Below, piece by piece: positions 8,251 through 33,929 of a stretch of DNA of 52,209 bases. The stretch spans positions 1 through 52,209 of the forward strand of contig JANYFR010000012.1 in NCBI GenBank assembly GCA_025362585.1, written 5' to 3'. The notes beneath the pieces are model-generated. The model was not told the DNA's origin. It made no database searches and saw nothing but the letters and a program-made list of their open reading frames with translations. The translations under genes were made by a program, and so were the position numbers. The stretch's first letter is position 1. Every line of letters begins with the position of its first letter. Source of the stretch: Acidimicrobiales bacterium. Lineage in GTDB: Bacteria > Actinomycetota > Acidimicrobiia > Acidimicrobiales > RAAP-2.

Positions 8251-8257
8251 TCGGCGG

Positions 8258-8263
8258 TAATCT
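8258..8263 (+). promoter_or_regulatory. -10 element before the TetR gene
   Basis: TAATCT is followed by eight bases and the ATG at 8272, with no ribosome binding site. It fits a leaderless start. The element lies just after the glycosyltransferase stop, so the TetR gene has its own promoter. Confidence 0.5.
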
Positions 8264-8271
8264 GTCCTTCA

Positions 8272-9933: not shown

Positions 9934-9971
9934 CGTGCCCAGAACAAAGTCATCGCAATTGATTCAATTCT

Positions 9972-9989
9972 CTCGCACACTCGTGCGAG
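9972..9989. terminator. Possible hairpin downstream of the 260-residue Asp-box gene
   Basis: CTCGCAC-ACTC-GTGCGAG forms a perfect 7-base stem with a 4-base loop, 23 bases past the stop of the minus-strand gene ending at 10012. There is no clear U-run, so termination is uncertain. Confidence 0.35.
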
Positions 9990-10011
9990 TCGGGTTATAC
10001 CCACTCAGATT

Positions 10012-10794: not shown

Positions 10795-10823
10795 CGGACC
10801 TCTTTCTCGGTAATGTTCATGGT

Positions 10824-10838
10824 ACTATTCAGAGTAGT
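10824..10838. promoter_or_regulatory. Candidate GntR operator between the divergent Asp-box and gntR genes
   Basis: ACTATTCAGAGTAGT is an imperfect palindrome: arms ACTAnTC and GAnTAGT around a central base. It overlaps a -10-like TACTAT (10823-10828) four bases before the gntR ATG region. Autoregulation is inferred from position only. Confidence 0.4.
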
Positions 10839-13207: not shown

Positions 13208-13930
13208 TTATTCACAACTCTCTTTGATACAAGAGAGTTGTTCGAGGACCGCGACCGCCGGGAAGAGGAGGTTGTTCTCCTTGTACACGTGCAGGTGCGT
13301 GTCGGACTCCAACTCCGCCAGTCCGTCGTAGAAGGCGCGATAACTCCGGCAGCCGTTAGGCGGGGTTTGGTACCCGTTGGTAAAGGCGTGGATTTGCTTC
13401 AAGAGTTCACCGACTTGATCGTGTTCGAGGATCATTGCCGAGATAGGACCATCAAGTGAACCGCGGTGAATCCGCGACTCAGCCGACGACGAGGCCAACT
13501 CTCGAATCATGGGAAAGAGTACCCGCTCTTCCTTTGCGAGATGCGGAACGAACTCCGACTTGAGCTCGTGAAACACCCGGCGGACGTCGCTCAGTTCCGG
13601 ATGCGTGGCGGCGTGCTTGGTCGCAACCTTGTCCGCCAGCGCCGCGAGGCGCACTAGTTCGGTGTGCAAATAAGCGTGGTGGGTTGCTTCAATCTGGTCC
13701 ACGAGTTCGACCGGACCCATCGACGTCCACTCGGGATCGGGGCCGTTCTCGGTATCGCGTAACGCCGCGAGCAACGTCGCGGGGTCCATGCCTGCTTCCT
13801 CACAGGCCGTCTCCAACGTTCGCGAACCACCACAGCAGTAGTCCAAGCCGACCGATTCCATAACCCGCAGCGTGGCGGGATGCGCCTCCACAATCTCGGC
13901 GATCGACTGATGCAGCTCAATGACTTCCAT
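13208..13930 (-). CDS. Iron-sulfur cluster repair di-iron protein (RIC/YtfE/ScdA)
   Basis: This 240-residue protein has an N-terminal ScdA domain with the motif LDYCCGG (about 29-35). A hemerythrin-like four-helix domain follows, with expected di-iron ligands in THHAYLH, EFVPHLAKEE, LEHDQV and THLHVYKENN. RIC proteins repair iron-sulfur clusters damaged by nitric oxide or peroxide. The ATG at 13930, behind an AGAGAG box, gives the normal N-terminus; longer frames upstream add low-complexity Arg-rich sequence. It follows the YwiC-like gene by 17 bases, giving the order rrf2, ywiC-like, ric. Confidence 0.9.
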   Translation of the reverse strand: MEVIELHQSIAEIVEAHPATLRVMESVGLDYCCGGSRTLETACEEAGMDPATLLAALRDTENGPDPEWTSMGPVELVDQIEATHHAYLHTELVRLAALADKVATKHAATHPELSDVRRVFHELKSEFVPHLAKEERVLFPMIRELASSSAESRIHRGSLDGPISAMILEHDQVGELLKQIHAFTNGYQTPPNGCRSYRAFYDGLAELESDTHLHVYKENNLLFPAVAVLEQLSCIKESCE

Positions 13931-13947
13931 ATCTATCTCTCTTCTCT

Positions 13948-14841
13948 CTAGTGAAAAACGAGTACGCCGAACGTGCACGCCGCGACGACGAACATTCCCA
14001 GCGCCATCTGTCGCGTTCCCGTCACGACGGCCCGTACGACCGCTCCGCGTAACCACCGTCGCTGGATGAGCACTACGAGCACCATTGCCACGGCGCCGGC
14101 GATAAGCGCGGGGTCCAACATCGCCGCGCCCAGCGCGGCCAGTAGCGCGACGCCATCGGCGAACATGCCGAGCCGCGTCAACTGCGGTCGTGCGTGCAGA
14201 CGAGTGATCATCTCTCGCACGTGCGGAATCGACGTGACGGCCCGAGCAGCGAGGACCAACCACGTGCCTGCGGCAAGCCGCGCGGCTCCCCCATCGACTA
14301 AGACCACGGTCGCCGCGACCGAGCAGATGCCCACCGCGCCCGCGAGCTCTGGCACGAGTCGCCGACCGCGCGATCGCATCTCAAACCGGAACGCGACGAG
14401 GAAGAACGGGACCGCGACGATAGTGGGCAACCAGAACGTGCCCTGGGCCGACGCGACGGCCCCCACGATCAACGCCGCGAACACCACCAACTCGCTCGCC
14501 GCGACCCAACACGCGACGCGGGTACGTTCCAGCGAGCGACCGCGATGAAGATCGATCAGGACGAGACGTAGCGGCGTACGCGCGAGAAAGCCTACGAGAG
14601 CGACCATCGCGACGCACAGGCCCGCAACGCCCGGCGCCAACAAATAGCCCAGCAATCCCGGCTCGAGCGTGAGACCCCACCCGCCGTGCTCCTTGGGCAC
14701 CGCGACCGAACGGAGCAAGGAACGTTTTTTCGTTGTCACTTCTGGGTCGCTGGAGATCGTCACGGTGCCACGCTCGGCGCTAGTGCACGAGTTCGCGCGC
14801 CTTCGCAACGGGTGCGCGCGACGTAGTGACAACTCATTCAT
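13948..14841 (-). CDS. YwiC-like membrane protein
   Basis: This 297-residue protein has a basic N-terminus followed by the conserved start of the YwiC-like family, PKEHGGWGLTLEP (about 49-61), and eight or so membrane helices. YwiC-like proteins often lie beside nitrate/nitrite or nitric-oxide metabolism genes but their activity is not established. The ATG at 14841 overlaps the rrf2 stop as ATGA, which fixes the start. Position between an Rrf2 regulator and a RIC repair protein suggests a role in nitric-oxide or nitrosative stress. Confidence 0.78.
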   Translation of the reverse strand: MNELSLRRAHPLRRRANSCTSAERGTVTISSDPEVTTKKRSLLRSVAVPKEHGGWGLTLEPGLLGYLLAPGVAGLCVAMVALVGFLARTPLRLVLIDLHRGRSLERTRVACWVAASELVVFAALIVGAVASAQGTFWLPTIVAVPFFLVAFRFEMRSRGRRLVPELAGAVGICSVAATVVLVDGGAARLAAGTWLVLAARAVTSIPHVREMITRLHARPQLTRLGMFADGVALLAALGAAMLDPALIAGAVAMVLVVLIQRRWLRGAVVRAVVTGTRQMALGMFVVAACTFGVLVFH

Positions 14842-15248
14842 CGCTGGTTCTCCGAGATCAGTAGTGACAACCGTGTGGACGAGAGCCGCGTGAGCAGGTC
14901 CGCGCGCGCGATGGCCCACGACACGTGAAGGGCGCATCGTCCAGTTTGAGCACATGGTCGACCATCGAGGACGCACTGACCGGAGTCGGTGGGGCCCTCG
15001 ACGGCTTCGATGACCTCGAGCACGCTCACCTGTTCGGGATCGAAGGTTGCCTGGTAGCCGCCCAGGGGACCGGGCACGGACTCAACCCACCCGCGCTGGA
15101 CCAGAGCCAGCATCGCGTGAGACAAGAAACCCGGCGTCGTACCGACTAGTCGGGCCAACTCCGATGACTTAGTCCTTGCACCGCCGCTCGACAAGACAAT
15201 GAGTGCTCGTGTGGCGATATCCGATCTTCGCGTAATCTCTAATCGCAT
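14838..15248 (-). CDS. Rrf2-family regulator, NsrR-like
   Basis: This 136-residue protein has an N-terminal winged helix (about 8-60; ARLVGTTPGFLSHAMLALVQ) and the three cysteines typical of iron-sulfur-sensing Rrf2 proteins: Cys92, Cys99 and Cys105. The spacing C-x6-C-x5-C is close to that of NsrR and IscR. NsrR senses nitric oxide through its cluster, and the RIC gene two positions downstream is a common NsrR target. It is likely autoregulated; the start is leaderless and the promoter contains two TATAGT hexamers. Confidence 0.85.
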   Translation of the reverse strand: MRLEITRRSDIATRALIVLSSGGARTKSSELARLVGTTPGFLSHAMLALVQRGWVESVPGPLGGYQATFDPEQVSVLEVIEAVEGPTDSGQCVLDGRPCAQTGRCALHVSWAIARADLLTRLSSTRLSLLISENQR

Positions 15249-15262: not shown

Positions 15263-15828
15263 CATTCTCAGGATAATCTCACCGACCCAAGGAAACAGGC
15301 TTCTTGAGCGTTCCCGGGCTTTTGGGCGACGCTAGGAGGGATTCGCCGAGATGACGTCGGCACGAGTGAGGTGGCCCGCGAGCCGGCCTGAATGCTCCCG
15401 ACCCGGGTGGTGGCCAGCACGTCGCCTTTTTGACGGCGTTCGAGGCGATGCTCGTCGTGGTGGGAGCCAGCATCGTAATTTGACAGCGCGCGAGGGTCGT
15501 CCGACCACGAACGTCAAGGAGCGTGTGCAACGTGCGGGGCGTGCATGCGTCGCCACCAGTCTCGTCGCGAGCGCTCTTTTCGTCATGCGAACGAGAGCGC
15601 GGCGCGCGCCGTCTGTCACGTGGCACGAACGTGGACGTCGTAGGTATACGTGTTGAGGAGTCCACCAGCGGCCTTCGGTCCTGTGGCGCCCGCGCTGGGT
15701 CCCTAACGGTTAGGTCAAAATGCTCATGGTGACCCCGATCTGACCCCGGGCACGATCGAGCATCTCACTCTGCCCCGACGCTCCGGCGCATTAAGCACCA
15801 CGACGAACTTGTGCGAATGGGGCCTCGG
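15263..15828. other. Stretch without a supported gene
   Basis: About 560 bases between the rrf2 and mobA promoters. Open frames on both strands have no family character. A short plus-strand frame near 15410-15483 ends in HVAFLTAFEAMLVVVGASIV, which looks like the last membrane helix of a transporter and may be a gene remnant. No hairpin or repeat stands out. Confidence 0.4.
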
Positions 15829-15834
15829 TACCAT
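15829..15834 (+). promoter_or_regulatory. -10 element before mobA
   Basis: TACCAT is followed by six bases and the ATG at 15841. This leaderless arrangement supports 15841 over the in-frame ATG at 15811. Confidence 0.5.
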
Positions 15835-15840
15835 GGAAAC

Positions 15841-16440
15841 ATGCCGTCCCCCTCGAGCACCGTGGCAGCGATCTTGCTCAGTGGCGGCGCGAGCCAGCGC
15901 ATGGGCACCGATAAGACACAACTCGTCGTCGATGGATCGACGCTCGCCGCTCGCACCGGCGCGTTGCTCGCCCGCGTCGCCACGATCGCCATTGAAGTGG
16001 GGCCAGGGGCCTCCGGGCTGCGATCTCTCCTCGAAACGCCTCGGGGCGAAGGTCCCCTTGTGGCAGTCGCGGCGGGCTGTCGGGCACTCGACGGACTCGG
16101 CCACGCCGGCGCGACGTTGGTCGTCGCCTGTGACCTGCCATTCCTTAGCGAAGAACTACTGCGGTTAATCATCAATTGGGACTCGAAGGGATCAGTGGTG
16201 CCGGTCGTCGAGGGCCGACCTCAACCCCTCTGCGCCAAGTGGTCCGCGCACGATCTGCACCGCGCACAAGAGCTCGTGGATCACGGGATTCGCTCACTGC
16301 GCCACGTCGCGCAAGCACCCGACGCACAGTACCTGCACGAGTCCGAGTGGGGCCGCGTCGTCACGGCGCGACAGTTCAGCGACGTCGACGATGCCGAAGA
16401 TCTTCGACGACTCGGTCTCGCGCGCGACGTGCAAGATTAG
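15841..16440 (+). CDS. mobA: MobA, molybdenum cofactor guanylyltransferase
   Basis: This 199-residue nucleotidyltransferase has the N-terminal loop LSGGASQRMGTDK (13-25) that binds GTP in MobA and the later motif VVACDLPFLS. It attaches GMP to molybdopterin to form the MGD cofactor used by DMSO-reductase-type enzymes. This matches the molybdoenzyme encoded at 24.5-27 kb. It leads a plus-strand run mobA, moaE, moeA, moaD, with moaE starting 10 bases after its stop. Confidence 0.9.
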   Translation: MPSPSSTVAAILLSGGASQRMGTDKTQLVVDGSTLAARTGALLARVATIAIEVGPGASGLRSLLETPRGEGPLVAVAAGCRALDGLGHAGATLVVACDLPFLSEELLRLIINWDSKGSVVPVVEGRPQPLCAKWSAHDLHRAQELVDHGIRSLRHVAQAPDAQYLHESEWGRVVTARQFSDVDDAEDLRRLGLARDVQD

Positions 16441-16450
16441 GGTGAGGTGA

Positions 16451-16912
16451 ATGGAACCGTCGGCCCACGAGTGGATTCTCGTTTCCTCATCGCCCCTGTC
16501 CGCCGCGACCGTCACGCGGTCGGCGACGCGCGCGGATTGTGGCGCGGTCGTGACGTTTTGCGGAACCGCAGGCAACAACTCCGCTGACCACGACATGGTC
16601 GAGGCGATGGATAACGAAACGCACGTCCCGCTGGCGGAACACCGAATCGGCGAGATCATCGCCGCCACTCGTACCCGCTGGCCCGAACTCGGGGCCGTCG
16701 CGGTCCATCACCGTGTCGGACACGTCGCGCTCACTGAGACGGCGAGCGTCCTCGGCGTTTCCGCGCCGCACCGAGACGGGGCCTTTGATGCGGCGCGCTT
16801 CTGTATCGGTACGCTAAAGAAATCCGTCCCGATGTGGAAACATGAGCTCTGGGCAGACGCCGCGACGTGGAGCGGCGACACCCAGGACATTTCCGTTGTG
16901 CCAAAGACGTGA
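16451..16912 (+). CDS. moaE: MoaE, molybdopterin synthase catalytic subunit
   Basis: This 153-residue protein matches MoaE: VTFCGTAGNNSADHDM (35-50), VHHRVGHVALTE (86-97) and the active-site lysine region TLKKSVPMWKHE (Lys123/124 and Lys130). MoaE takes sulfur from MoaD thiocarboxylate to build the dithiolene of molybdopterin. A GGTGAGG box precedes the ATG. The partner moaD lies after moeA but carries a frameshift, so activity would need another MoaD if the shift is real. Confidence 0.92.
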   Translation: MEPSAHEWILVSSSPLSAATVTRSATRADCGAVVTFCGTAGNNSADHDMVEAMDNETHVPLAEHRIGEIIAATRTRWPELGAVAVHHRVGHVALTETASVLGVSAPHRDGAFDAARFCIGTLKKSVPMWKHELWADAATWSGDTQDISVVPKT

Positions 16913-16952
16913 CGAGGATCTCGCGCGTGCGAACCGAGATCGGCGGCTACTT

Positions 16953-18206
16953 ATGATATCACTCGACGAGGCCCGGGGCTTCGTCCGCCGCGACCTGTGC
17001 ACGCTCGACCCGGTGCCACGCCCGATTGACGACGCGCTCGGTCTGGTGGTCGCCGAGGTCGTGTTGGCGCGCGAACGCGTACCGGGCTTCTCTAATTCGG
17101 CCATGGACGGCTACGCCATGCGCTCGAGCGACACTTCGGCGAGCGAGACGAGACTGCGCGTCACCGGTGCGGTCATGGCCGGCGAGGTCGCGAGCACGCC
17201 GCTCGGGACCGGTGAAGCGATTCGGATCATGACGGGTGCGCCGGTCCCCAAAGGCGCGGACTGCGTGTGCATGATCGAAGAGGTGTCTCTTGACCCCGCC
17301 GGACGCGAGGTGTCGATCCAGCGAACCATGGCCGTCGGCGAGAACGTGCGGCACGCCGGCGAAGACATCGAGGTGGGCCAGGTCCTCATTGCCTCGGGTG
17401 CGCAACTCGGGATCGTCGAACTCGGCGTGCTGGCGAGCCAGGGCTACGCGACCGTGAAGGTCTATCCGCGCGTGCGCGTCGGCGTGTTGTCGACAGGTAG
17501 CGAGCTCGCGACGTCACTGGGGGCCCTCGCCGAAGGTCAGATTCGCGACCTCAACCGCCCGATGCTGCTGGCTTCGCTGCGTCGTTCCGGCTTCGAGGCG
17601 ATTGACCTCGGGATCATCCCCGATGACGAGGCGCTCATCACGCGAACCTTGGAGAACGCCATCGTCGACTGCGACGCCGTGGTGTCGACGGGCGGCGTCA
17701 GCGTCGGTGACGTCGATTACGTGAAGGGCGCCATAGCGAAACTGTGCGGAGACCGAGCGCGTTCGATGAAGGTGGCCATCAAGCCAGGCAAGCCGTTGAC
17801 GTTCGGGATCGCGGGTGAACGCGGCACTCCCGTCTTCGGTCTCCCGGGTAACCCCGTGTCGACGCTGGTCGGCTTCGAACTCTACGTGCGACCATCCCTA
17901 CGCGTACTCGGCGGCCACCAAGAGCTAGAACGACCGATGCTCACTTCGGTCCTCGACACGGCGATCTCGAGGCGACGCGACGGCAAACTGCACCTCATCC
18001 ACGTCGTGGTTGAAATCGGGGCTGACGGATGCGCGCACGTCACCGAAATTATGCGCCAGGGATCCCATTTGGTCAGCGCGATTGCCGGCGCGAACGCCAT
18101 CGCGATGGTTCCCGACAGCGAGGGACTAGAACCCGGGCAACGCGTGCGCACGATGATGCTCGACTTCGACCGGTTCACCTCCCCCACGTCCGAATCGTCG
18201 ACGTGA
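16953..18206 (+). CDS. moeA: MoeA, molybdopterin molybdenumtransferase
   Basis: This 417-residue protein has MoeA features in order: SAMDGYAMRSSD near 50-61, TGAPVPKGADCV, a MoCF domain with GVLSTGSEL and STGGVSVGDVDYVK, then KPGKPLTFG and FGLPGNPVS. MoeA inserts molybdate into adenylated molybdopterin. The ATG at 16953 gives the normal N-terminus; a longer frame overlapping moaE is less likely. The stop overlaps the moaD GTG as GTGA. Confidence 0.93.
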   Translation: MISLDEARGFVRRDLCTLDPVPRPIDDALGLVVAEVVLARERVPGFSNSAMDGYAMRSSDTSASETRLRVTGAVMAGEVASTPLGTGEAIRIMTGAPVPKGADCVCMIEEVSLDPAGREVSIQRTMAVGENVRHAGEDIEVGQVLIASGAQLGIVELGVLASQGYATVKVYPRVRVGVLSTGSELATSLGALAEGQIRDLNRPMLLASLRRSGFEAIDLGIIPDDEALITRTLENAIVDCDAVVSTGGVSVGDVDYVKGAIAKLCGDRARSMKVAIKPGKPLTFGIAGERGTPVFGLPGNPVSTLVGFELYVRPSLRVLGGHQELERPMLTSVLDTAISRRRDGKLHLIHVVVEIGADGCAHVTEIMRQGSHLVSAIAGANAIAMVPDSEGLEPGQRVRTMMLDFDRFTSPTSESST

Positions 18207-18437: not shown

Positions 18438-18906
18438 GGATCCGCCTCGCCACGCAAGAGTTCGAGCGCGTGGGGCAGTACGTCCAACACCGCGTCGAGA
18501 GTCTCGATCGCACCCGTCGGCGACCCGGGGGTGTTGAGGATCAAGCTGCACCCGGTGGTTCCGGCCCTCGCCCGCGACAGACGCCCGAGCGCGTTCACGC
18601 CACGCATGGCCTCACTCAGACCAGGGCCTCACGCTCGATGACCATCATCGCCTCTTGCGTCAGGTCGTGCGGCGAGAAACCCGTGCCGTCCGTCGCCACC
18701 ACGAGACCGGCGAAGTCGCGCGTCAGCTCACGCAGCGCGGCGGCCATCGTCTCAACCCCGCCGGCAACGACGCCGAGCTCGATGATCTCAAATCCCGAGG
18801 CTTCGAGGTGAGCGGCGATCAGCGGCCCCGCTCGTTCCTCTTTCGCCCCGGCGCTGACCGAGTCTGAGACCGTCAGGACCTTCACGCGAAAGGTGTCGCG
18901 CGACAC
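18344..18906 (-). pseudogene. MoaB/MogA-type molybdopterin adenylyltransferase gene with a frameshift
   Basis: The first part (18616-18906) encodes the N-terminal MoCF half: TVSDSVSAGAKEERAGP and VVATDGTGFSPHDLTQEAM, ending IEREALV-stop. The second part in another frame (18344 to about 18625) encodes EAMRGVNALGRLSRA, then GCSLILNTPGSPTGAIETLD and LPHALELL. Adding one C to the CCC run near 18623-18631 would join them as EREAPGLSEAMRG, the usual family sequence. The GTG start directly follows the moaA stop. The last 94 bases run antisense to the end of moaD, and the tail after LELL is longer than usual. Confidence 0.75.
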
Positions 18907-20001
18907 TCATCCACCAATCATGGACATCGACCGCAGCGGCCGTAAGAACCCGGGGTCGTTGATGCCGTGACCCGGCAGTTTTCCCCAAACCGCGCGACGC
19001 AGTGTGGTCGCCACGTCGTCGTCGGACCCGTGCGAACGCATGACATCGCGCGCCGAGAGTTCATCATCCGAGAACAGGCAGTTCCGCACGGCTCCTTCGG
19101 TCGTCAGGCGCAGCCGGTTACACGTTCCGCAAAACGGCCGCGTCACACTCGCGATGACGCCAATTTGACCAATGCCGTCGGCGAAGTGGAACTGTTCATT
19201 AGGTGAAGCGTCGTCGCCCCCAGGGCCGGGGGTGAGCATCGGCCACCGTTCGCCGATGCGCTCGAGCAGATCGGCGGCCGGTACGACCTGGGAACGATCC
19301 CAGTTCCCCTCGGCGTCGAGCGGCATGTACTCGATGAAGCGCACGATTCGGTCATGTTCGCGGGCGAAGGCACAGAAGTCCAGGACCTCGTCTTCGTTCA
19401 CGCCGGCCATCATCACGACGTTTACCTTCACGGGAGTGAGGCCCGCCGACTCGGCCGCGTCCATCGCCTCGAGCAACGTCGAGAGTTGTCCTCGACGACG
19501 GATTTGCGCGAAGCGTTCCGGGCGAAGTGAATCACAGCTGATGTTCACTCGACGTAGTCCCGCGTCGGCCAACGGCTGGGCCAAACGCTTGAGCCCGGTC
19601 CCGTTGGTCGTGAGCGCGAGGTCCTCAAAGCCGATCGCTGCAACCTGACGCACTAGCTCGACGATCCCCTTACGCATGAGTGGCTCGCCGCCGGTCAGCC
19701 GCACCGAGGTCACGCCAAGGTCGTGCGCCACGCGCGCCACGCGCGTCAACTCCACGAACGTGAGGATCTCAGCTCTCGGAAGGAACTCGATGCCCTCCTC
19801 GGGCATGCAGTACACGCATCGAAAGTTGCAGCGATCCGTGACCGAAAGACGCAGGTCGGTGTGCACTCGACCGTATCGATCAATAAGCGGCCCGTCGAGC
19901 GGCATCGGCCGAACGACATTGGCGCCCGACGAGCGCGTCGAGCCGGCTGTTGGTTTCGTACGCAGCGCCACGGACGCCCCGGAGATCACCGGCGTCACCA
20001 C
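18907..20001 (-). CDS. moaA: MoaA, GTP 3',8-cyclase
   Basis: A radical SAM protein with the N-terminal cluster motif CNFRCVYC, followed by TGGEPLMRKGI and TTNGTGLKRLA. The C-terminal second cluster is CGTCNRLRLTTEGAVRNC (C-x2-C-x13-C), and the last residues MSMIGG provide the functional Gly-Gly tail of MoaA. It makes the first Moco intermediate from GTP with MoaC. I chose the GTG at 20001 because GGAGG precedes it by five bases; the ATG at 19905 is an alternative. It lies downstream of the molybdoenzyme operon on the same strand. Confidence 0.92.
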   Translation of the reverse strand: MVTPVISGASVALRTKPTAGSTRSSGANVVRPMPLDGPLIDRYGRVHTDLRLSVTDRCNFRCVYCMPEEGIEFLPRAEILTFVELTRVARVAHDLGVTSVRLTGGEPLMRKGIVELVRQVAAIGFEDLALTTNGTGLKRLAQPLADAGLRRVNISCDSLRPERFAQIRRRGQLSTLLEAMDAAESAGLTPVKVNVVMMAGVNEDEVLDFCAFAREHDRIVRFIEYMPLDAEGNWDRSQVVPAADLLERIGERWPMLTPGPGGDDASPNEQFHFADGIGQIGVIASVTRPFCGTCNRLRLTTEGAVRNCLFSDDELSARDVMRSHGSDDDVATTLRRAVWGKLPGHGINDPGFLRPLRSMSMIGG

Positions 20002-20134
20002 GCTGACCTCCACGGTGACGCGACCCGACCACACGTTCGAAGATGTTGCACGTCGCTCACAGTACTGACGCCGGCGTGCGACTCCTCAATGGCTGTAAAG
20101 GCCCCACGGGGTTTCGACGGGTACCGGGTCATCG

Positions 20135-21766
20135 TCACAGCGCTAACAAGCAATCGGCGCACCGCACTTCGCTGCGTAGTCGCTGCGCCAAGCGCGGATG
20201 CGAATCGTCCAGGCGTGTCGCGATTGCGGACGGCACGAGGCCTCCCGCGATATCCCCTCCACACGACGCGCACATCGGTCGGGCGGTCCTCACGAAGACG
20301 GAGTGGCGAGGAGCGCTCAGATTCGCAAAGTCGAACACGTGACGTAGCTGTAGCGCGTCCTGAGGACAGGCGAACACGCACGCCGCACAGGCCGAACACG
20401 CACTCGGATCGAACGTGAGGACGACTGCCCCGCCGGGCTCGTCACGCTGCTCGAGGGCGTGCGCCGCACAAGCGGGTACGCAACGCCCACACGCCGTGCA
20501 CCGCGACTCGTCGATCGCGACGTCCCCCAAGGCCAGCCAGGGAGATTCGACAGACCACAGCACGTCCTGGCTCGCGAGCGCGGGAGCCATCAACGCGATC
20601 GGTGACGCGAGTGCGCCACTGGCGACGCTCGCTGAACGCAAGTACGCCATCGCGGACGTCGTCGCGTCAGGCTCGTCGAAGCGTAGCGTCGCGAACGCCA
20701 GCGGAGCCCTCTCGAGCGCACGCCGCACGCCGAGGGACTCGCGGGCGACTACTTGGAGCATGCCCCGTGCGAATTGAACGTCAAATCCCGGCGCCGCCGC
20801 CTGGGCCAGGGCGTGGGCGAGCTTGATTAGCTCGTCACCCCGTGTCACGCATCGTTCGTCGCCACAGGCCACCAGACTCACCGACGCCCCCGCGGCCAGA
20901 ATCTGGACTAACCAACCGACGCTCACGATTTCGAGCGACGGTACTTCGAGTGGCAACCGGTCGTCGCCGAGGAGCATCGTCGGCTGTGCGTGAGCGCACA
21001 CGATTGCCACGCCTGGTCGAGAGTGCAAGTCGGCCGAGCACTTGGCCAGAATCGCCGCCTCGGCTTCGTAGGCGCGAAGCGACACACCGGCCAGTGAGAC
21101 GGCCCCCGAACGACACGCGCGTACGCAGGCGCCGCAACCCGTGCAGCGCGCCTCGTCGACCACCAGGCGCCGGCCGTCGACCGACAGCGCTCCGACGGGG
21201 CACGAATCGATGCACGCGAGCGACGAGGCAAGGTCGGCGTCGCCACTCTCGCTCCACGTCGCGACCGCACTGCGTTCGACAGCACCCGGGCGAAACAGAT
21301 TACGACGAGAGAGTAGTACTGAGTTCGCCCCCGCACGTTCACGTATCGGTGCGCTCGCGTCGCCGCAACGGGTCCGCGCCAATGCCGCCTCAATTCGCAC
21401 CACCGAATCGGCCGCGATCTCGTTGGGCCCGACCATCTCACCCGGCTTCAATTCGAGCACTCGTACGCCCGAAGGGTGGACGCCGGCCCTGCGTACGCGC
21501 GTCACCACCTCGTCGCGCACTTCGGTGCCCACGCGGCACGCGATAATCACTCGGTCAACGACCGCGTTCCTGACGATCGCCGTCAGCGTCCACGGCGCGA
21601 CACAGAGTTTCGACACCACGGTGATGTTCACGCTCTCTGAGGATCCGCGAAGGCGTTCGACGATGGCGTCGCCCGAGCGGCCCTTGGCAACATCGGAGCA
21701 CAAGATGACGAGCGCTGTGTCAGCCAGCGGCACCTCCGGGGTCACCACATCCATCGCCTCTGTCAT
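20135..21766 (-). CDS. Multi-cluster ferredoxin-type electron transfer protein with MvhD/FlpD-like regions
   Basis: This 543-residue soluble protein has a Cys-containing alpha/beta domain (1-130) followed by iron-sulfur motifs: Cys185-x3-Cys189-Pro with Cys208-x2-Cys-x2-Cys-x3-Cys218, Cys423-x2-Cys-x2-Cys-x3-Cys433, and Cys457-x2-Cys-x2-Cys-x3-Cys467. The segment 254-320 (IVCAHAQ...VACGDERC) resembles the iron-sulfur subunit of heterodisulfide reductase-linked hydrogenases (MvhD/FlpD). A C-terminal pair C499SSC502-like and C536-x2-C539 could bind zinc or iron. It starts 17 bases after the TorD gene and probably passes electrons within this respiratory operon. The exact role is not known to me. 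Confidence 0.65.
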   Translation of the reverse strand: MTEAMDVVTPEVPLADTALVILCSDVAKGRSGDAIVERLRGSSESVNITVVSKLCVAPWTLTAIVRNAVVDRVIIACRVGTEVRDEVVTRVRRAGVHPSGVRVLELKPGEMVGPNEIAADSVVRIEAALARTRCGDASAPIRERAGANSVLLSRRNLFRPGAVERSAVATWSESGDADLASSLACIDSCPVGALSVDGRRLVVDEARCTGCGACVRACRSGAVSLAGVSLRAYEAEAAILAKCSADLHSRPGVAIVCAHAQPTMLLGDDRLPLEVPSLEIVSVGWLVQILAAGASVSLVACGDERCVTRGDELIKLAHALAQAAAPGFDVQFARGMLQVVARESLGVRRALERAPLAFATLRFDEPDATTSAMAYLRSASVASGALASPIALMAPALASQDVLWSVESPWLALGDVAIDESRCTACGRCVPACAAHALEQRDEPGGAVVLTFDPSACSACAACVFACPQDALQLRHVFDFANLSAPRHSVFVRTARPMCASCGGDIAGGLVPSAIATRLDDSHPRLAQRLRSEVRCADCLLAL

Positions 21767-21782
21767 CTCGCACTCGCGTTGC

Positions 21783-22463
21783 TCAATCGGTCGACGGTTC
21801 GACCAAGGATAGGGACGCGATGAACTGCGTCGTCGGCACCTTCCAGCTAGCGCTCAAGTTGGCGAGGTCCTTATAAAAGGGCAGCGTCGCCTCGCGCGCC
21901 ACCGCACGACAGAAGGGCGACACCCACTTGGTCAAATGCTCACCGAACAACGCCCGCGCGACGGCATCATGCTCTTCGAACGAGAGGGCGTACGCCAGTG
22001 CCTCCAGTTCGATCGTGAGGTGATCGGGCAGTTCGCGAGTCTCGGGGGTGACCTCTAGACCGAGCTCGGCGTACAGTCGATTCAAGTCGGCGGTACAGGG
22101 TCCCATGAGCGAGCGTTTGATGTCGAGAGCGACGTCATTTCTCCAGTAGGACTCATACGGCGGGCACGCGACGGGACCGGGGCCTACGAAAAGCCGCTCG
22201 TACTCATCGAGCAGCGTTGCCGCATCCAGTTGGTGCGACGTGGGCCGAGACGAGTGATCTGACATAGTGGACGCGACGCGATCTTCGAGGTCTCCAGTCC
22301 ACGCCCAAAGGGCCACCTCTTCTTCCGAGGGCCGACTCCACCAATGCGACAACAGGTCGAGGGCGGCGATCGCGGTCTCACGATTCCACGGCGTGAAGTC
22401 GACGGGGTCGCCTGGTCCCGGGTCACGACCGACCGTAGCCTCTGTCACTCGTTCGACCGTCAC
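21783..22463 (-). CDS. TorD/DmsD-type chaperone for the molybdoenzyme
   Basis: This 226-residue helical protein has features of the TorD family: a central EYERLFVGPGPVACPPYESYW (split: EYERLFVGPG and VACPPYESYW) and LPDHLTIELEALAYAL. Such chaperones bind the Tat signal of the catalytic subunit and hold it until cofactor insertion. The catalytic gene upstream has a Tat signal, which agrees. The start lies 9 bases after the NrfD gene. Confidence 0.88.
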   Translation of the reverse strand: MTVERVTEATVGRDPGPGDPVDFTPWNRETAIAALDLLSHWWSRPSEEEVALWAWTGDLEDRVASTMSDHSSRPTSHQLDAATLLDEYERLFVGPGPVACPPYESYWRNDVALDIKRSLMGPCTADLNRLYAELGLEVTPETRELPDHLTIELEALAYALSFEEHDAVARALFGEHLTKWVSPFCRAVAREATLPFYKDLANLSASWKVPTTQFIASLSLVEPSTD

Positions 22464-22472
22464 AATCCCTCC

Positions 22473-23795
22473 CTAAGGTTTCGTGGCGAGGGTGGTGTCC
22501 CTCACCGAGTTGTCGTCCGAAGTCGGCGGCCCCTCGTCACGCGTGAGCGACGCGGAGCCGAGTGGATCACGGATCATCTTTCCATCGGCCAGGTGGAGTC
22601 GGCGATAGCCCGTAGTGAAGATCGCGGCGAAGAGCGCACAAAGTCCCAAGGTGATCGCGTACTCGACGAGCGACGGTGTGTACTTTCCCACCAGTTGGAA
22701 GGAACTGGCAGTGGCGTTGTACGTACCCAACGCGTTCCCGGGTGGGAACTGGGTGAGCGGGTTGACGAATCCGACGATCACGAGTTCGATGCGAAAGGCA
22801 TAGACGCCGATGAGGACCAGGAACGTGGCGATGCCGAGCGATCCGCTCACCCGGCGAAGGCGAGGGACCATCAAGAAGGCGAGGGGGACCAATCCACCGA
22901 CGAGCCACTCCCCCCAGAATAGCCACGAGTAGGGACCACCCGGCAGAACCAGATTCAAGGCGGAACGGTCGGCCGGCACGTTGCCCCAGAAGATCGTGAT
23001 GTAATCGCAGGCGACGAAAAACAAGTCGATCAAGAGCGCCATCGCCACGAACTTGCGGAGCCACTCTCTCGTGTCGTTCGGAAGGTTGAAGTGACCCCAG
23101 CGCTCGGCGGCGAGCGCGAGAAGGGTGACGAGCGCGGTGCCCGACAGTATCGCTGACACGACGAACAGCGGCGCCATCAGCGAGGTGTTCCACCACGTGC
23201 GAGATATCTGCAAGCCGAAGATCCACGCGGTGACCGAGTGCAGCAGCACGGCCGTCGGGAGTCCGATGTAGGCGAGGAGTCGCATGGTGCGTCGCAGTCT
23301 CGTGGGCTCAACCGCGTGGACTTGGAGCACGCTGAGGTCGACGACGGAAAAGATGAAGTAGACCGTGATGATCAGGACGTCCCACAGCAGCGGTGACGAC
23401 CAGTTCGGATGGCGCACGAGGTTAAGGATGCGCGTAGGTTGACCGAGGTCCGGGATGATCATGAGTGCGGCCACCGCCACGCAGGAGGCGGCCGAAAGCA
23501 CGCCGAGCCGTGCGAGCGGCTTCAGGGCCTTGATGCCGAAGACTTCGGCGCTCGAGGCCATGATGAGCCCGCCGGCGGAGAGGCCGATGAAGAACGCGAA
23601 GGTGAAGATATACATCCCCCAGGACACAACGTCACGCATTCCCGTCGCGGCGAGGCCGTGATCCAACTCGTAGATCCACGCCGCGAATCCGATGACGCCG
23701 ATGAGCGCGAGCAGCGCGTACCAGATCTGCACGCCCACGCTCTTAGCCACCTTGCCTTCAGCCGCGTCAGGCAACGAAACCGTGTTGATAGCCAC
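22473..23795 (-). CDS. NrfD/PsrC-type membrane anchor subunit
   Basis: This 440-residue membrane protein has about nine or ten helices. Features of the NrfD family are WGMYIFTFAFFIGLSAGG near 60-77 and a region rich in Trp/His near ILNLVRHPNWSSPLLWD. It would exchange electrons between the quinone pool and the four-cluster ferredoxin subunit. It follows that gene by 12 bases. A long C-terminal cytoplasmic tail (about 400-440) is acidic and variable. Confidence 0.92.
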   Translation of the reverse strand: MAINTVSLPDAAEGKVAKSVGVQIWYALLALIGVIGFAAWIYELDHGLAATGMRDVVSWGMYIFTFAFFIGLSAGGLIMASSAEVFGIKALKPLARLGVLSAASCVAVAALMIIPDLGQPTRILNLVRHPNWSSPLLWDVLIITVYFIFSVVDLSVLQVHAVEPTRLRRTMRLLAYIGLPTAVLLHSVTAWIFGLQISRTWWNTSLMAPLFVVSAILSGTALVTLLALAAERWGHFNLPNDTREWLRKFVAMALLIDLFFVACDYITIFWGNVPADRSALNLVLPGGPYSWLFWGEWLVGGLVPLAFLMVPRLRRVSGSLGIATFLVLIGVYAFRIELVIVGFVNPLTQFPPGNALGTYNATASSFQLVGKYTPSLVEYAITLGLCALFAAIFTTGYRRLHLADGKMIRDPLGSASLTRDEGPPTSDDNSVRDTTLATKP

Positions 23796-23807
23796 TGCGG
23801 ACTCCTC

Positions 23808-24539
23808 TCAGCTCTCTCGTACGACGCGCTTGCGCACGGGCACGTAATAGACATTTGGGTCGGTACCGAGCTCGGGGTGCAACTGCACCGCGCCGCCCTC
23901 ATTGATTAATTGACTGACCTCACTGTCAGCGTCGTTGAGATCGCCGAACACTCGCGCGCCGATGGGACAGACCTCGACGCAGAACGGCTCCTCGCCGACG
24001 TCGATCCGCTCCACGCAGAACGTGCACTTCTCGACCACTCCCTTGGGGCGCTCGGGTGTGAACACAAGGCGTCCGTCGTCGTAGTAGTTCTTCCCGTAGC
24101 CCACGATGCCACCGGGTGCGTACTCGGCGTCACCCCAGTTGAAGATGCGCACGCCGTACGGACAGGCCGCCATGCAGTAGCGACAACCGATGCAGCGCTC
24201 GTAGTCGATCAAGACCGCGCCGTCGTCGCGTCGGTAGGTCGCCTGCACGGGACAGACCTTGACGCACGGGGCGTCGTTGCAGTGCTGACAGGCGACCGGC
24301 AGGTAGGCCAATTCCAGATCCGGGAAGACGCCTCGGGGTACGTCGATGTTCTCACTCGCCGGTGGCGCCGCGGTCGTCGACTGATTCGGTGCCGTCGTGA
24401 GGATGCGATTCCACCAGAACCCCAGCGGCTCGTTGTTTATTTCTTTGCAGCCCACCGCGCACGTCCAACACCCGACGCAACGATTCGTGTCGACGACCAT
24501 GACGTGATGGGGAACGTACTTGGTTTTCTCATCGGTCAT
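23808..24539 (-). CDS. Four-cluster ferredoxin subunit of the molybdoenzyme (DmsB/PsrB/TtrB type)
   Basis: This 243-residue protein has four complete cysteine sets: C21-C24-C27-C31, C84-C87-C92-C96, C116-C119-C122-C126 and C172-C175-C187-C191. That is the arrangement of beta subunits that carry electrons between a molybdopterin subunit and a membrane anchor. All 16 ligands are present. I take the ATG at 24539 because GAGGGAG precedes it by eight bases; a GTG at 24548 overlapping the upstream stop is also possible. No signal peptide, as expected for a subunit exported with its Tat-bearing partner. Confidence 0.93.
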   Translation of the reverse strand: MTDEKTKYVPHHVMVVDTNRCVGCWTCAVGCKEINNEPLGFWWNRILTTAPNQSTTAAPPASENIDVPRGVFPDLELAYLPVACQHCNDAPCVKVCPVQATYRRDDGAVLIDYERCIGCRYCMAACPYGVRIFNWGDAEYAPGGIVGYGKNYYDDGRLVFTPERPKGVVEKCTFCVERIDVGEEPFCVEVCPIGARVFGDLNDADSEVSQLINEGGAVQLHPELGTDPNVYYVPVRKRVVRES

Positions 24540-24544
24540 TGTGG

Positions 24545-27028
24545 TCACTCCCTCACTAATTCGACTTGCGCCAGGCAGTCGTAATAGGCCGCGTTGGACG
24601 GGAAGTTGGGTATAAGGGCTTGGGCCGGCTTAGCGAACTGATGCGTCAGATTGTTCGGGTGCCCTTCGATATAGCTCTTCACCTTGATGGTGTCCCAACC
24701 ACCCTGGTAGCAGTTCACAACGCCGGGCTTGATCGCTTCGGTGAGTCGAGCCCGCACCTTCATGTCGCCGCGGTCGTTGAAGACCCGCACGACGTCACCG
24801 TCACTAATGTTGCGACGGGTCGCGTCCTTTGGATTTATCTCCAAGAAGCCGTCGCCACCGTTGTTGATCTCATTGAGCCAGGGAAGCGTCACGAACTGTG
24901 AGTGCGTCCGGAATCGAGTGTGCGTGGACAAGAAGACGAGCGGATACTTCTTGAAAAGCGTGTTGGTTGGCGACGCTTCGATGGGCTCTTGGTGCTCACA
25001 GAGCTCTTGTCCAAATGGCACCAGCATCTCGACGTAGAACTCAATCTTTCCGCTCTTCGTTGGAAACTGCTTGTTGAAGAACGGCACATACGGCATCGGG
25101 TCGGTGTTCAGGTGCACCGCTTCGGTGGTGAGTTGCTCCCAGGTGAGCCCGCGTACCGTCGGGTCGGCATCGGACTTGCCCAGGTGCAGGATCTGCTTCA
25201 GGTAGGTCTCGGGCGTCTCGGTGAAGTACCGTCCGACACCCATTTTCTGAGCCACCAGTCGAATGGCGTCGAGGTCCGACTTCGACTCGAACAGCGGTTC
25301 GATGATCTTGGGCATGTACTGGAGGTAGAAGTTGTTCGATGACAGCAGATCGGTCTTCTCAATGTACGTGCATGCGGGCAACACCAAGTCGGCGATGTCG
25401 GCCGTGGCCGACAGGTTGTAGTCCGACACCACGCAGAAGTCCAACGCCTTCATCGCCTTGACGACCTGGTTGCGGTCGGACATCTGCTGAGCGAAGTTGT
25501 CGATCATGAACCACGCCGCGCGCACCGGATACGGGTCATCCTTCAGGACCGCGTCACAAAAGTCCATGGGCTCGAGGACCGCGTACGGAGTACCCGTCGG
25601 ATTCCACCAGTTGAACAGATCGAACGCCGTGGTCGTCAGGCCACCGGCGAACGTCGTGACGCCGCCACCGTGTTCGCCGATGTTGCCGGTAATCGCTTGC
25701 AGCGTGAGTAGTGCCTGCATATGGAGATCGCCGTGGTACCAGTGCGAGAGCCCGAATCCGACGCGCACCGCCAGCGGCTTCACCGTTCCCCACGTCTTGG
25801 CGAGGGACACAATCTGGGCTTTCGGGATGTCCGTGAGGTGCTCGGTGTACTCAGGCGTGTACTTGGACACCATGTCGGCGAGTGCCTGGAGGGCAGTGCC
25901 AGCGCGCAGGTTCCCCACCTGATACGTGCCGAGTATCGCCGCCGACGTCAACGAAGGATCGGAGGCGGCCTTCAACGTTGCGTCCGTCTCGTCGTAAACG
26001 ACGAAGTCGTTGGCCGCACCGGGTAGCACGTCGTTCGCGCGCAGCCACCTCTTCGAGGTGGGATCGACCAGGTATGGCCCCACGGTGTAACGACGTATGT
26101 AGTCGGCGTCGTAGAGCTTGTGCAAGAAGACGTAATTCATGATCCCGTCGATGAGCGCCGTGTCCGAGCCCGGTCGAATCGGCAGCCACGCATCGCTGGC
26201 CGCCGAAGTCGGCGTGAAGCGAGGATCGACTGAGATGAGTTGGGTTCCGTTCGCGTCCCGGGCGTCGAGCATTATTCGCCAATCGGGAATCGAAGTCTCC
26301 GCGACGTTGTTGGCCCAAAAGACGATGGCCTTGGCGGAAAGGAAGTCCACCGACTCGTGGCCGGTGAAGAATCCACCTCCGTTGGCGGGATTATCGGGGT
26401 CCACGAGGACGTAGTTCCAGCCCGCGGGCGTCGCCGAGTCCCCTTCGTTGTCACCCTCGGAGTCGCCGGCCGACGCGCCGATGACGCTCGCCAGACGAAA
26501 CCCCGCTCCGACGACGCCTTCGATCAACGCGAGGGAACCGGTGTAGGGCGCGATCCAGACCGCCTTTTTGCCGTACTTCTCCTGGACCTGCTTGAAGTTA
26601 GTCGCGATGAGCGTGGTCGCCTCTTCCCAGGTAATGCGTTGCCACTTACCGGAACCTCGTTCCCCGACTCGACGGTAGGGGTACTTGATGCGATTGGGAC
26701 TGTAGGTGTTCGCGATCTGTGAAAGTCCCCGCAGGCAGATTCGCGGGTGAAACGTGGGCGCCGCGGCGCCCGATACGGTCTTGGTGCCCCAGTGCGCAGG
26801 GCCGATCTCGGTGACGCGACCATCAACGACGTGGATCATGTGGCCGCAGGCACCGTCACAGTTGTTGGAGTGTCCGGTGCGATAGATGGTTTCGGTACCG
26901 GTGATAACTGATTCGGGAGTCGCCGCCGACACCGACGCGGGTTGCAAGAAACGCAGATGGTCCGCAAGGGCGACTCCTCCGACTGTGGCCGCACTGCCAA
27001 CTAAGAACTTCCGCCGCGAGAACTCCAT
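24545..27028 (-). CDS. Molybdopterin oxidoreductase catalytic subunit with Tat signal, NarG-like first cluster
   Basis: An 827-residue member of the DMSO reductase superfamily. The Tat signal is SRRKFLVG (4-11) with a hydrophobic stretch to about 36. The first iron-sulfur motif is His53-x3-Cys57-x3-Cys61-x36-Cys98, the His-first pattern seen in NarG and other type II enzymes rather than the all-Cys pattern of PsrA/TtrA/DmsA of E. coli type. Asp189 in GASAGDSEGD could be the molybdenum ligand, but that needs alignment. The substrate is unknown. The ATG at 27028 has AAGGAG in front; a longer frame upstream lacks support. It is the first gene of the operon through moaA. Confidence 0.9.
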   Translation of the reverse strand: MEFSRRKFLVGSAATVGGVALADHLRFLQPASVSAATPESVITGTETIYRTGHSNNCDGACGHMIHVVDGRVTEIGPAHWGTKTVSGAAAPTFHPRICLRGLSQIANTYSPNRIKYPYRRVGERGSGKWQRITWEEATTLIATNFKQVQEKYGKKAVWIAPYTGSLALIEGVVGAGFRLASVIGASAGDSEGDNEGDSATPAGWNYVLVDPDNPANGGGFFTGHESVDFLSAKAIVFWANNVAETSIPDWRIMLDARDANGTQLISVDPRFTPTSAASDAWLPIRPGSDTALIDGIMNYVFLHKLYDADYIRRYTVGPYLVDPTSKRWLRANDVLPGAANDFVVYDETDATLKAASDPSLTSAAILGTYQVGNLRAGTALQALADMVSKYTPEYTEHLTDIPKAQIVSLAKTWGTVKPLAVRVGFGLSHWYHGDLHMQALLTLQAITGNIGEHGGGVTTFAGGLTTTAFDLFNWWNPTGTPYAVLEPMDFCDAVLKDDPYPVRAAWFMIDNFAQQMSDRNQVVKAMKALDFCVVSDYNLSATADIADLVLPACTYIEKTDLLSSNNFYLQYMPKIIEPLFESKSDLDAIRLVAQKMGVGRYFTETPETYLKQILHLGKSDADPTVRGLTWEQLTTEAVHLNTDPMPYVPFFNKQFPTKSGKIEFYVEMLVPFGQELCEHQEPIEASPTNTLFKKYPLVFLSTHTRFRTHSQFVTLPWLNEINNGGDGFLEINPKDATRRNISDGDVVRVFNDRGDMKVRARLTEAIKPGVVNCYQGGWDTIKVKSYIEGHPNNLTHQFAKPAQALIPNFPSNAAYYDCLAQVELVRE

Positions 27029-27471: not shown

Positions 27472-27705
27472 TTAGACGGAACGTTGTTGCGACTCTTCAA
27501 TGTCGAGTGAGATCTCCAGTGCCCGTTGAAGGTCAATCCCGTCGCGTCCGACCAACCAGCACGCAATTGGGGCCGCGGTGCGCTCCGAAGCGTGCGCGGC
27601 TGATCCGGCCAACAAGAGGAGTTGCTCGGTCTCTTGCTCACTCGGCGGGTCGATACTCAACTTCTCGCAGAAGGTTGCGAACCATTCTTCCTTGGTCACG
27701 TTCAT
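27472..27705 (-). CDS. DUF6457 protein, Moco-associated
   Basis: This 77-residue helical protein begins MNVTKEEWFATFCEKL and contains LAGSAAHASERTAAPIACWL, the pattern of DUF6457. In actinobacteria this domain is found alone or attached to MobA-like proteins, so a role in molybdenum cofactor supply is plausible. Here it stands upstream of the molybdoenzyme operon. The start is leaderless: TATCAT (27718-27713) then seven bases, then ATG. Longer frames upstream would include zwf-remnant sequence and are unlikely. Confidence 0.75.
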   Translation of the reverse strand: MNVTKEEWFATFCEKLSIDPPSEQETEQLLLLAGSAAHASERTAAPIACWLVGRDGIDLQRALEISLDIEESQQRSV

Positions 27706-27712
27706 GTTCAAG

Positions 27713-27718
27713 ATGATA
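27713..27718 (-). promoter_or_regulatory. -10 element of the DUF6457 gene
   Basis: TATCAT on the minus strand, seven bases before the ATG at 27705, fits the leaderless pattern. Confidence 0.5.
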
Positions 27719-27800
27719 CCTGACTTGGACGTGCAAACTTCCAACTCACAGGACGCCGCAGCGAACGAGACAACTCCATCATTACGTAGGAAGTGCCGCC

Positions 27801-27935
27801 CAGTCCCAACCACTCTTTCGGTGCGATGAGGCGATCAGCGCTCGCCGGTCCCCATGACCCCTTGGCGTAGATCTCGACGGGTGGTGGACTTGCGAGCGCG
27901 GGCTCGATGCCGCCGCGGATGCGTGGCGGCACTGT
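27801..27935 (-). pseudogene. Remnant of a glucose-6-phosphate dehydrogenase 3' end
   Basis: One frame encodes IEPALASPPPVEIYAKGSWG followed by PASADRLIAPKEWLG, which matches the C-terminal end of glucose-6-phosphate dehydrogenases (a Pro-rich turn, then Y-x-x-GSWGP and a D-x-LI tail). About 40 codons are recognisable, and no upstream part of the enzyme is present before the NTF2-like gene at 27997. A leftover after deletion or rearrangement is the simplest reading. Confidence 0.5.
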
Positions 27936-28398: not shown

Positions 28399-29108
28399 CA
28401 ACCCTTATCCTTTTGCGCACCTTCGATACCACGGACCGCCGCGTCGCGCAGATGATCGTGGCGAAGTGGCTCCATCGAACCCACCACGTGCTGGTGCAGC
28501 AACGAAGCCGTGAGGGCAACGTCGCGCTTTGCGAGCGCGGCAACGATGAGCGCGTGCTCGTGGCGCGACTCGTCGTGGGGGCGCCAGAACTGCGGACCCA
28601 TGGGAAAGCCCCGCCATAGGAAGCGCAACAACGTGACGAGCATTGGCGAATCAGCGGCTTCGTAAATACAGAAGTGGAAGCTGCGATTGAGTTCGCGGAT
28701 CCTGGGATCCCCCTCGGCACACGACGCGTGCTCATCGGCGATGGAGCGCAACTCGGCAAGTCGTTCGGGGATCATCCTCAACACCGCCAGTTCACCTGCG
28801 AGGGCTTCGAGCGGAACGAGGATTCGAAGATGCTCTTCGAGGCGTTCGAGAGGTAGCGGCGCCACGGTCGCACCGCGATGAGGGTCGAACTGGACAAGTC
28901 CCTCGGACTCTAGTTTCTGAAGACCTTCGCGCACGGGTGTTGGCGACAGTTGGAAGAGTTCGGCAAGTTCGCGCTGACGAAGACGCGCGCCCGGGGCGAT
29001 TGTTCCGTCAGCGATCAATTCGCGCAAAGCTTCGGCGACAAGATCGACCTTCGAGCGGTAGTCGCGTCCGAGACCCGCCGGAAGGGCTTCCTCGAGCGAC
29101 TCGGTCAT
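28398..29108 (-). CDS. GntR-family regulator, FadR/FCD type
   Basis: This 236-residue protein has an N-terminal winged helix (about 18-82; ARLRQRELAELFQLSPTPVR, RGATVAP) and a helical FCD-type ligand domain with His residues in ELNRSFHFCIYEAADSP and LLHQHV that could bind a metal. FCD regulators commonly control catabolic operons for organic acids or amino acids. The ATG overlaps the livF-like stop. As part of the operon it may report on the transported substrate. Confidence 0.87.
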   Translation of the reverse strand: MTESLEEALPAGLGRDYRSKVDLVAEALRELIADGTIAPGARLRQRELAELFQLSPTPVREGLQKLESEGLVQFDPHRGATVAPLPLERLEEHLRILVPLEALAGELAVLRMIPERLAELRSIADEHASCAEGDPRIRELNRSFHFCIYEAADSPMLVTLLRFLWRGFPMGPQFWRPHDESRHEHALIVAALAKRDVALTASLLHQHVVGSMEPLRHDHLRDAAVRGIEGAQKDKG

Positions 29109-32502: not shown

Positions 32503-32569
32503 TCGCCGCCTCCGACGTCACCCGCTTCATGGCAACGAATCGGAGCCGGAAGGTGTCCCGGACGACGAC

Positions 32570-33868: not shown

Positions 33869-33929
33869 AACATTCCCCCCGGCGTTCCCCTGAAATTCAT
33901 GGCCCACTGCGCACTGCAACATCCGAACT

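Follow-up and report, generated by a model that had tools for sequence, protein, structure and literature searches.

Which substrate is served by a molybdoenzyme whose first iron-sulfur cluster motif resembles that of NarG, while its membrane anchor is of the NrfD kind? The question is raised by a stretch of 52,209 nucleotides from an Acidimicrobiales bacterium (assembly GCA_025362585.1, contig JANYFR010000012.1, positions 1 to 52,209; hereafter the window), in which five adjacent genes follow each other in tight succession on the reverse strand between positions 20135 and 27028 (the first two genes overlap by 4 bp, and the later ones are spaced by 12, 9 and 16 bp). From 27028 downwards, they code for the catalytic molybdopterin subunit (24545..27028), an electron-transfer subunit of the DsrO/DmsB kind with 16 Cys in four [4Fe-4S]-type motifs (23808..24548), an NrfD/PsrC-type membrane anchor (22473..23795; PF03916, 174.7 bits; DsrP, 143.1 bits, under the cut-off of 350), a TorD/DmsD-type chaperone (21783..22463; PF02613, 82.9 bits) and a polyferredoxin of 543 aa matching Fer4 families (20135..21766). 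The catalytic protein, of 827 aa, begins with MEFSRRKFL at 27028, the open frame itself running from 27244, and combines a twin-arginine translocation (Tat) signal (SRRKFL), a His/Cys FS0 motif and an Asp-type molybdenum (Mo) site. The gene positions and the kinds of partner proposed in an earlier, sequence-only reading were borne out by these profile matches. Judged from its sequence, the catalytic clade is a real, uncharacterised family of NrfD-anchored Asp-type molybdoenzymes, and its oddity is that a predicted His-ligated FS0 cluster and a NarG-type second-sphere His are found on an NrfD module.

The FS0 motif, His53-x3-Cys57-x3-Cys61-x36-Cys98 (numbered from the MEF start), is exactly that claimed by the sequence-only reading, and follows the His-x3-Cys-x3-Cys-xn-Cys pattern described for type II enzymes (PMC8301774), among them NarG, PcrA, ClrA, SerA and EbdA. 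Its four ligands, as well as Asp189, Asp193 and Asp197, are invariant in all 25 clade rows that extend this far, and this conservation of the ligands indicates that the motif is not due to chance. The alignment comprises 26 clade rows, namely the window, L125 and 24 of the 25 loci presented below (L026 is omitted, L024 truncated), and is partly redundant, L125 being the same gene as L027, and L018/L019 and L020/L023 being close pairs. On the reverse strand, the codon of His53, the first FS0 ligand, lies at 26870..26872 (computed from 27028) and that of Asp197 at 26438..26440 (by arithmetic). Asp197 is aligned with NarG Asp222, PcrA Asp170 and EbdA Asp223 (chain numbering), the latter two of which we take to be Mo ligands, and is likely to be the Mo ligand of the clade; the NarG-222 column holds Asp in all rows. 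The Asp of PcrA is also given as Mo ligand in PMC8301774. Asp189, earlier put forward for this role, is equally conserved, but it is Asp197 that occupies the known-ligand column. A Ser ligand of the E. coli DmsA type is disfavoured, the adjoining Ser198 being replaced by Ala in 1 of 25 rows (L021).

In NarG, His546 forms a hydrogen bond with Asp222, with Asn52 located close to the substrate (PMC8301774, PMC5405038). The clade harbours Asn in the NarG-52 column and, according to the alignment of its rows, His429 (codon at 25742..25744, reverse strand) in the NarG-546 column, and His429, Trp430 and Asp434 are invariant in all 26 rows. This column also holds His in E. coli NarG, L117, a chlorate-type enzyme of Alisedimentitalea, and L073, L077 and L126, the last three sharing the NHW[YF]HGD motif of the clade; Arg is found in E. 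coli DmsA and TorA, three haloarchaeal DmsA and YnfE (a putative selenate reductase), and Lys in ClrA and EbdA. Outside the clade, His followed by Trp (+1) and Asp (+5) was observed in 6 of 48 rows, all belonging to type II or to its Cys-FS0 sister lineage; the motif is common to NarG, PcrA and the clade.

A contig scan for the catalytic subunit yielded 44 loci, 25 of them (L004-L027 and L031) at 63-80% identity and the other 19 at 23-33%. All five genes are present in the window's order at 15 of the 25 loci, and in another order at none (tblastn). Contig ends truncate eight further loci (L006, L010, L016-L019, L021 and L026), of which L016 in addition shows no TorD match, and at L022 and L024 the same search found the other four genes and no TorD. 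The 25 loci all derive from metagenome-assembled genomes (MAGs) of Acidimicrobiales, other actinobacteria and Bacillota; isolate names include bog and palsa, and mine tailings and reactors are further habitats read from isolate names alone. Genome samples seldom contain the enzyme, and its distribution is patchy. Among 61 relatives its own genome alone has it, the 36 other genomes of the same genus, in all of which it is absent (E 1e-30), being included; 396 genomes of the phylum gave no match above 467 bits besides that genome. It was found in 3 of 248 genomes of the order of L011 and in 1 of 249 genomes (the query genome itself) of the phylum of L020. The contig belongs to its genome, and mis-binning is unlikely, since a tRNA-synthetase gene located 17 kb away (44046-46619) has matches of 69-80% identity in 19 of the 24 same-genus genomes searched. 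The clade is not named in the titles or abstract openings of the literature consulted.

The phylogenetic position of the clade was analysed with a quick tree of 60 rows and a careful tree of 43, the latter after removal of 17 rows (long outgroups, close clade rows and a fragment) and with retention of four rows of odd letter composition; PcrA, EbdA, SerA, DdhA, NxrA and SreA are not included. In the 43-row tree, the clade stands on its own branch with support of 100/100, and with an unsettled base. Approximately unbiased (AU) tests were made after the first tree had been seen, both groups of interest, haloarchaeal DmsA and type II, having been suggested beforehand by the finding. Union with the seven type II rows was rejected (p=0.00017), while the union was not rejected once the Cys-FS0 sister lineage of type II (five rows) was added (p=0.46). 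The sequence-only reading had named the archaeal dimethyl sulfoxide (DMSO) reductases as an example of a characterised clade into which a tree might place the enzyme; the tree gave no such placement, and union with haloarchaeal DmsA was rejected (p=0.0045, or p=0.013 with L103/L104 added). Union with the H-type lineage of family f53 (L080/L088/L092) was not rejected (p=0.49), and the quick tree has this lineage as sister of the clade with support of 80. Of the rows that are not clade members, L103 comes closest (35.6% identity), and the clade therefore counts as a family of its own by the yardstick of PMC10100899, in which lineages with an internal identity of about 50% are families. It follows from the tree placement that the FS0 His was probably gained more than once, or else disappeared from the sister lineage of type II.

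The combination of partners had been thought to match none of the well-known enzymes, a claim that goes too far. Haloarchaeal dmsABCD operons (L049, L052, L057 and L058) share the gene order A-B(DsrO-like)-C(NrfD)-D(TorD), and an NrfD/DmsC-type neighbour is present at 20 of the 23 related loci fetched, in one case weakly (L139, 25%), so that NrfD appears as the usual anchor of this radiation. At the other three, the contig ends first (L137), such a neighbour is missing (L140), or the enzyme is of type II with cytochrome b and Rieske genes as neighbours (L150); TorD-like genes stand beside fewer of the 23 loci. The name haloarchaeal DmsA is ours, based on operon and literature, the records reading merely molybdopterin-dependent oxidoreductase. 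These proteins have Asp in the Mo-ligand column like the clade, with which they share 28-31% identity (three compared), but where the clade has His they carry Cys (FS0 column) and Arg (NarG-546 column). Moreover, in place of the polyferredoxin gene downstream, their operons have a small Fe-S gene upstream, and they form a separate clade in the tree.

Type II enzymes share the FS0 pattern and the Asp column with the clade but function with a haem b subunit, which in the case of NarG is NarI, and a [3Fe-4S]-bearing beta subunit, whereas the clade has an NrfD anchor and a DsrO-type ferredoxin with four motifs; identity is 23-30% over seven rows, and the two are separate in the tree. The NrfD anchor and four-cluster ferredoxin are found in PsrABC, TtrABC and ArrABC as well, but these have Cys as Mo ligand, and bacterial DmsABC has Ser, where the clade has Asp. 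The Cys-FS0 Asp-type lineages of actinobacteria and Bacillota (L073-L079, L109-L116, L103/L104 and kin), of which we know no characterised member, resemble the clade in their Asp column and their ferredoxin and NrfD partners, and differ in the Cys of the FS0 column and in identity (at most 36%). In the actinobacterial family f53, which we take for Coriobacteriia, L080, L088 and L092 combine an FS0-column His with an NrfD partner, but share 29-31% identity with the clade, carry Lys in the 546 column and lack HWYHGD. In three other f53 enzymes, L144, L145 and L146, which are unusual too, the FS0 column is likewise occupied by His (HNEHC, HQWHC) and the partner is of the NrfD type. A further set of Asp-type enzymes, sister to type II (L134-L138, L141, L142, L147-L149 and L151), has a Cys-started, CSPNCT/CSPNCG-like FS0 motif, [HQ]W[YF]HGD and a ferredoxin partner, together with an NrfD partner except in the truncated L137.

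Profile scores of the catalytic subunit all fall under the cut-offs: 360.7 bits for the NCBIfam DmsA/YnfE model, its best whole-protein score (cut-off 777.7), 344.3 for the type II alpha model TIGR03479 (984.75), 253.6 for PhsA (694), 148.4 for the NarG model TIGR01580 (1084.15), 79.5 for ArrA (1600) and 69.3 for TtrA (1750). Its best PDB matches with phmmer, 5e7o and 4ydd, are type II chains, 4YDD being the perchlorate reductase of Azospira (PMC8301774). An AlphaFold model of this subunit was too poor (predicted local distance difference test score, pLDDT, 52.6) and was set aside. With regard to the partners, the FeS subunit scores 201.4 bits against the NCBIfam DsrO model, barely above the cut-off of 200, and 126 bits against the type II beta model TIGR03478 (cut-off 480.7), and the anchor shows about 10 hydrophobic segments in a hydrophobicity scan whose 16 overlapping stretches were merged by eye.

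The polyferredoxin is probably an accessory electron-transfer or assembly protein; it is far more variable across loci than the catalytic subunit, and similar genes recur beside L128, L132, L133 and L147. In a fold search with its predicted structure (pLDDT 74.6), the best E-values were obtained for HdrA-type chains at template modelling (TM) scores of 0.14-0.20, values which imply that the two have just ferredoxin-like parts in common, and kinship with Hdr was dropped. A 4Fe-4S protein of Alloyangia pacifica (L143), encoded near TorD, DUF3305 and DUF3306 genes, matches residues 185-299 of the polyferredoxin (21% of the query covered, 37.6% identity), but its client is annotated as a formate dehydrogenase. 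In the sulfur reductase system of the Sulfolobales, sreD codes for a polyferredoxin and sreE for a TorD protein. That system resembles the operon in its described make-up, PMC8551704 listing for SreABCDE a large subunit, an Fe-S subunit, an anchor and two genes of unassigned function.

As the sequence-only reading had stated, sequence does not fix the substrate. We nevertheless favour, with a probability of roughly 0.45, the reading that the operon encodes a quinol-linked terminal reductase of the outer (p) face, most likely acting on nitrate or a closely related oxyanion. The substrate is its least certain step, nitrate being favoured first and chlorate-like oxyanions next. Menaquinol would be oxidised at the NrfD subunit, and electrons would reach the Mo-bis(molybdopterin guanine dinucleotide) cofactor, bound by Asp197, by way of the FeS subunit's four clusters and then FS0. 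His429 may take part in a proton relay or in holding the ligand, as His546 does in NarG, and the oxygen atom would be removed from the oxyanion outside the cytoplasm. TorD would guard the Tat substrate, and the polyferredoxin may serve maturation or electron supply rather than being a core subunit. Three observations above all argue for nitrate or a related oxyanion, namely the invariant His of the NarG-546 column where the DMSO and trimethylamine N-oxide (TMAO) reductases compared have Arg, the proximity of the operon to narGHJI in two MAGs, and the genes that adjoin the cofactor genes of the window. Also in favour are the enzyme's apparent status as client of those cofactor genes, the share of clade genomes with canonical narG, and the union with type II plus its sister lineage that the AU test did not reject.

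In two Bacillota MAGs, the operon lies about 8 kb downstream of narGHJI on one contig: narG at 7233-10835 and the catalytic gene from 21568 on contig C34 of G455, and the end of narG at 4-1602 and the catalytic gene from 12795 on contig C54 of G458. The regions L160 (6682-20000) and L162 (1-15775), both from Bacillota MAGs, have the appearance of nitrate-respiration islands in which narGHJI leads into the operon by way of hemerythrin, CMD and OsmC-type genes; in L162, SLAC1, hemerythrin and CMD genes as well as OsmC-, moaA- and luxR-like genes occupy the interval. A second operon copy on contig C29 of G458 has open reading frames (ORFs) that match the G455 region in length and opening, and G458 may therefore mix strains. 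NarK-like transporters of about 150 bits, under the cut-off of 311.7, are encoded downstream on contig C34 of G455, near the C29 copy and in L031; in the latter, no nar gene was noticed among the upstream ORFs, without a targeted search. Canonical narG is present in 4 of 8 actinobacterial genomes of the clade (that of the window, G946 and those of six hand-picked loci), vs. 37 of 296 in the phylum sample (Fisher p=0.013, uncorrected for kinship), on another contig than the operon in each case.

Within the window, the operon is followed by moaA (18907..20034, reverse strand; TIGR02666, 367.7 bits, cut-off 284.05) and a short moaB-like gene (18616..18906, reverse; PF00994, 50.2 bits), and on the opposite strand by moeA-like (16842..18206; PF03453, PF00994 and PF03454), moaE-like (16451..16912; 80.5 bits, under the cut-off of 175) and mobA-like genes (15811..16440; 67.5 bits, under 205). 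In this genome (96% complete), PF00384 detects two genes, that of the operon and one read by eye as NuoG-like, the latter being the sole other superfamily member found, and the operon enzyme therefore looks like the client of the cofactor genes; it is also the best match of the NarG model in this genome, at 49 bits. Adjoining the cofactor genes, three genes lie in a row on the reverse strand (13208-15248) and form a nitrosative-stress kind of set. They code for an Rrf2-family regulator (14838..15248; PF02082, 90.5 bits) with three clustered Cys spotted by eye, a YwiC-like membrane protein (13948..14976; PF14256, 66.3 bits), the true start of which is probably later than that of the open frame, and the RIC or ScdA-YtfE iron-sulfur cluster repair di-iron protein (13208..13930, ATG at 13930; TIGR03652, 222.6 bits, cut-off 204.7). 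We take ywiC to lie within the nar region of B. subtilis, and L004 has a YwiC gene (74.9 bits) and a hemerythrin gene upstream of the operon. For YtfE, of the RIC family, a role as nitrite reductase generating NO under nitrosative stress has been described (PMC9052748).

Several observations weigh against nitrate. The His of the 546 column is not required, being Asp in a Haloferax larsenii type II enzyme and in haloarchaeal nitrate reductases (PMC8301774), nor is it exclusive, since L070, L074, L090, L091, L107 and L108, of unassigned function, also carry it; YnfE, for its part, has Arg. Where NarG and PcrA have the aromatic loop FYDWY, the clade has an acidic one, which reads GDxEGDNEGD in most rows. 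The genomes with narGHJI already own a nitrate reductase, which NarK would serve, so that the linkage may reflect a shared anaerobic island; NarK above its cut-off was found in none of 10 clade genomes, and the window's genome, G453, G456 and G946 have no canonical narG. RIC and Rrf2, 5-7 kb from the operon end, point to general nitric oxide (NO) stress, and NIR_SIR is present in 5 of 10 clade genomes, neither of the nar-linked ones among them. Finally, the known enzyme of like gene order respires DMSO/TMAO.

An S- or N-oxide (DMSO/TMAO) reductase working like haloarchaeal DmsABCD is the rival that survives best, although we consider it doubtful. The shared gene order and the Asp in the Mo-ligand column of both speak for it, as does the DmsA/YnfE model exceeding the type II model in score, but both scores are far under their cut-offs, and the Cys of FS0 and the Arg of the 546 column, where the clade has His, as well as the rejected union with haloarchaeal DmsA, count against it. 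It is unlikely that the enzyme reduces another oxyanion (chlorate, perchlorate, bromate, iodate or selenate) with nitrate as an incidental substrate, a proposal that partly overlaps with the favoured one. The type-II-like site and the PDB matches 5e7o and 4ydd are consistent with it, and so is a small CMD/AhpD-like gene near the operon in L004 (11753-12070), L008 (7725-8045), L009 (13345-13683), L012 (10121-10465) and L016 (8046-8360), its family verified for L004. Such a gene is found in the chlorate-type cluster L051, yet also near the haloarchaeal dms operon L057; chlorite dismutase was not noticed among the operon neighbours (no search aimed at it was made), the clade lacks PcrA's aromatic gate residues, and the putative selenate reductase YnfE has Arg in the 546 column. 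The L051 cluster, on an Alisedimentitalea plasmid (6119-11648), comprises chlorite dismutase, a molybdoenzyme whose FS0 His column is occupied by Asn, ferredoxin, TorD and cytochrome c. Least of all would we expect the reverse direction, a dehydrogenase or hydroxylase feeding the quinone pool: a COX1-family oxidase, present in 9 of 10 clade genomes examined and making oxygen respiration probably possible, would suit it, but to our knowledge the known dehydrogenases of the Asp-type group employ a haem b subunit instead of NrfD, the linked narGHJI, hemerythrin and RIC genes suit reduction, and EbdA, like ClrA, has Lys opposite His429, even if EbdA and dimethyl sulfide dehydrogenase are among the Asp-type relatives (PMC10100899).

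To return to nitrate, the reductase might even represent, next to Nar and Nap, a third architecture for respiring nitrate with quinol, although we hold this to be rather improbable. It would be extracytoplasmic, with a NarG-like site (Asp, His-FS0 and His546) on an NrfD/DsrO module, would have originated apart from type II proper, its His-ligated FS0 being an independent acquisition, and would be patchily spread in uncultured Actinomycetota and Bacillota. Were nitrate the substrate, surveys based on narG and napA would overlook a nitrate-reducing guild. More generally, the motif of a His-ligated FS0 and a NarG-type second-sphere His, the usual marks of type II, occur on the NrfD quinol module too, and annotation by motif alone would mislead. 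For uncultured bacteria of soils and bogs, the operon represents a candidate means of respiring anaerobically; one of them is the actinobacterium of the window, in whose genome a NuoG-like subunit was the sole other superfamily member found.

A DUF6457 gene (27472..27813, reverse strand) immediately precedes the operon, and a DUF6457 gene occupies the same position in L014. Further along, a branched-chain-amino-acid-type ABC transporter set with a periplasmic binding protein (29105-33922, reverse strand) has no evident tie to the operon.

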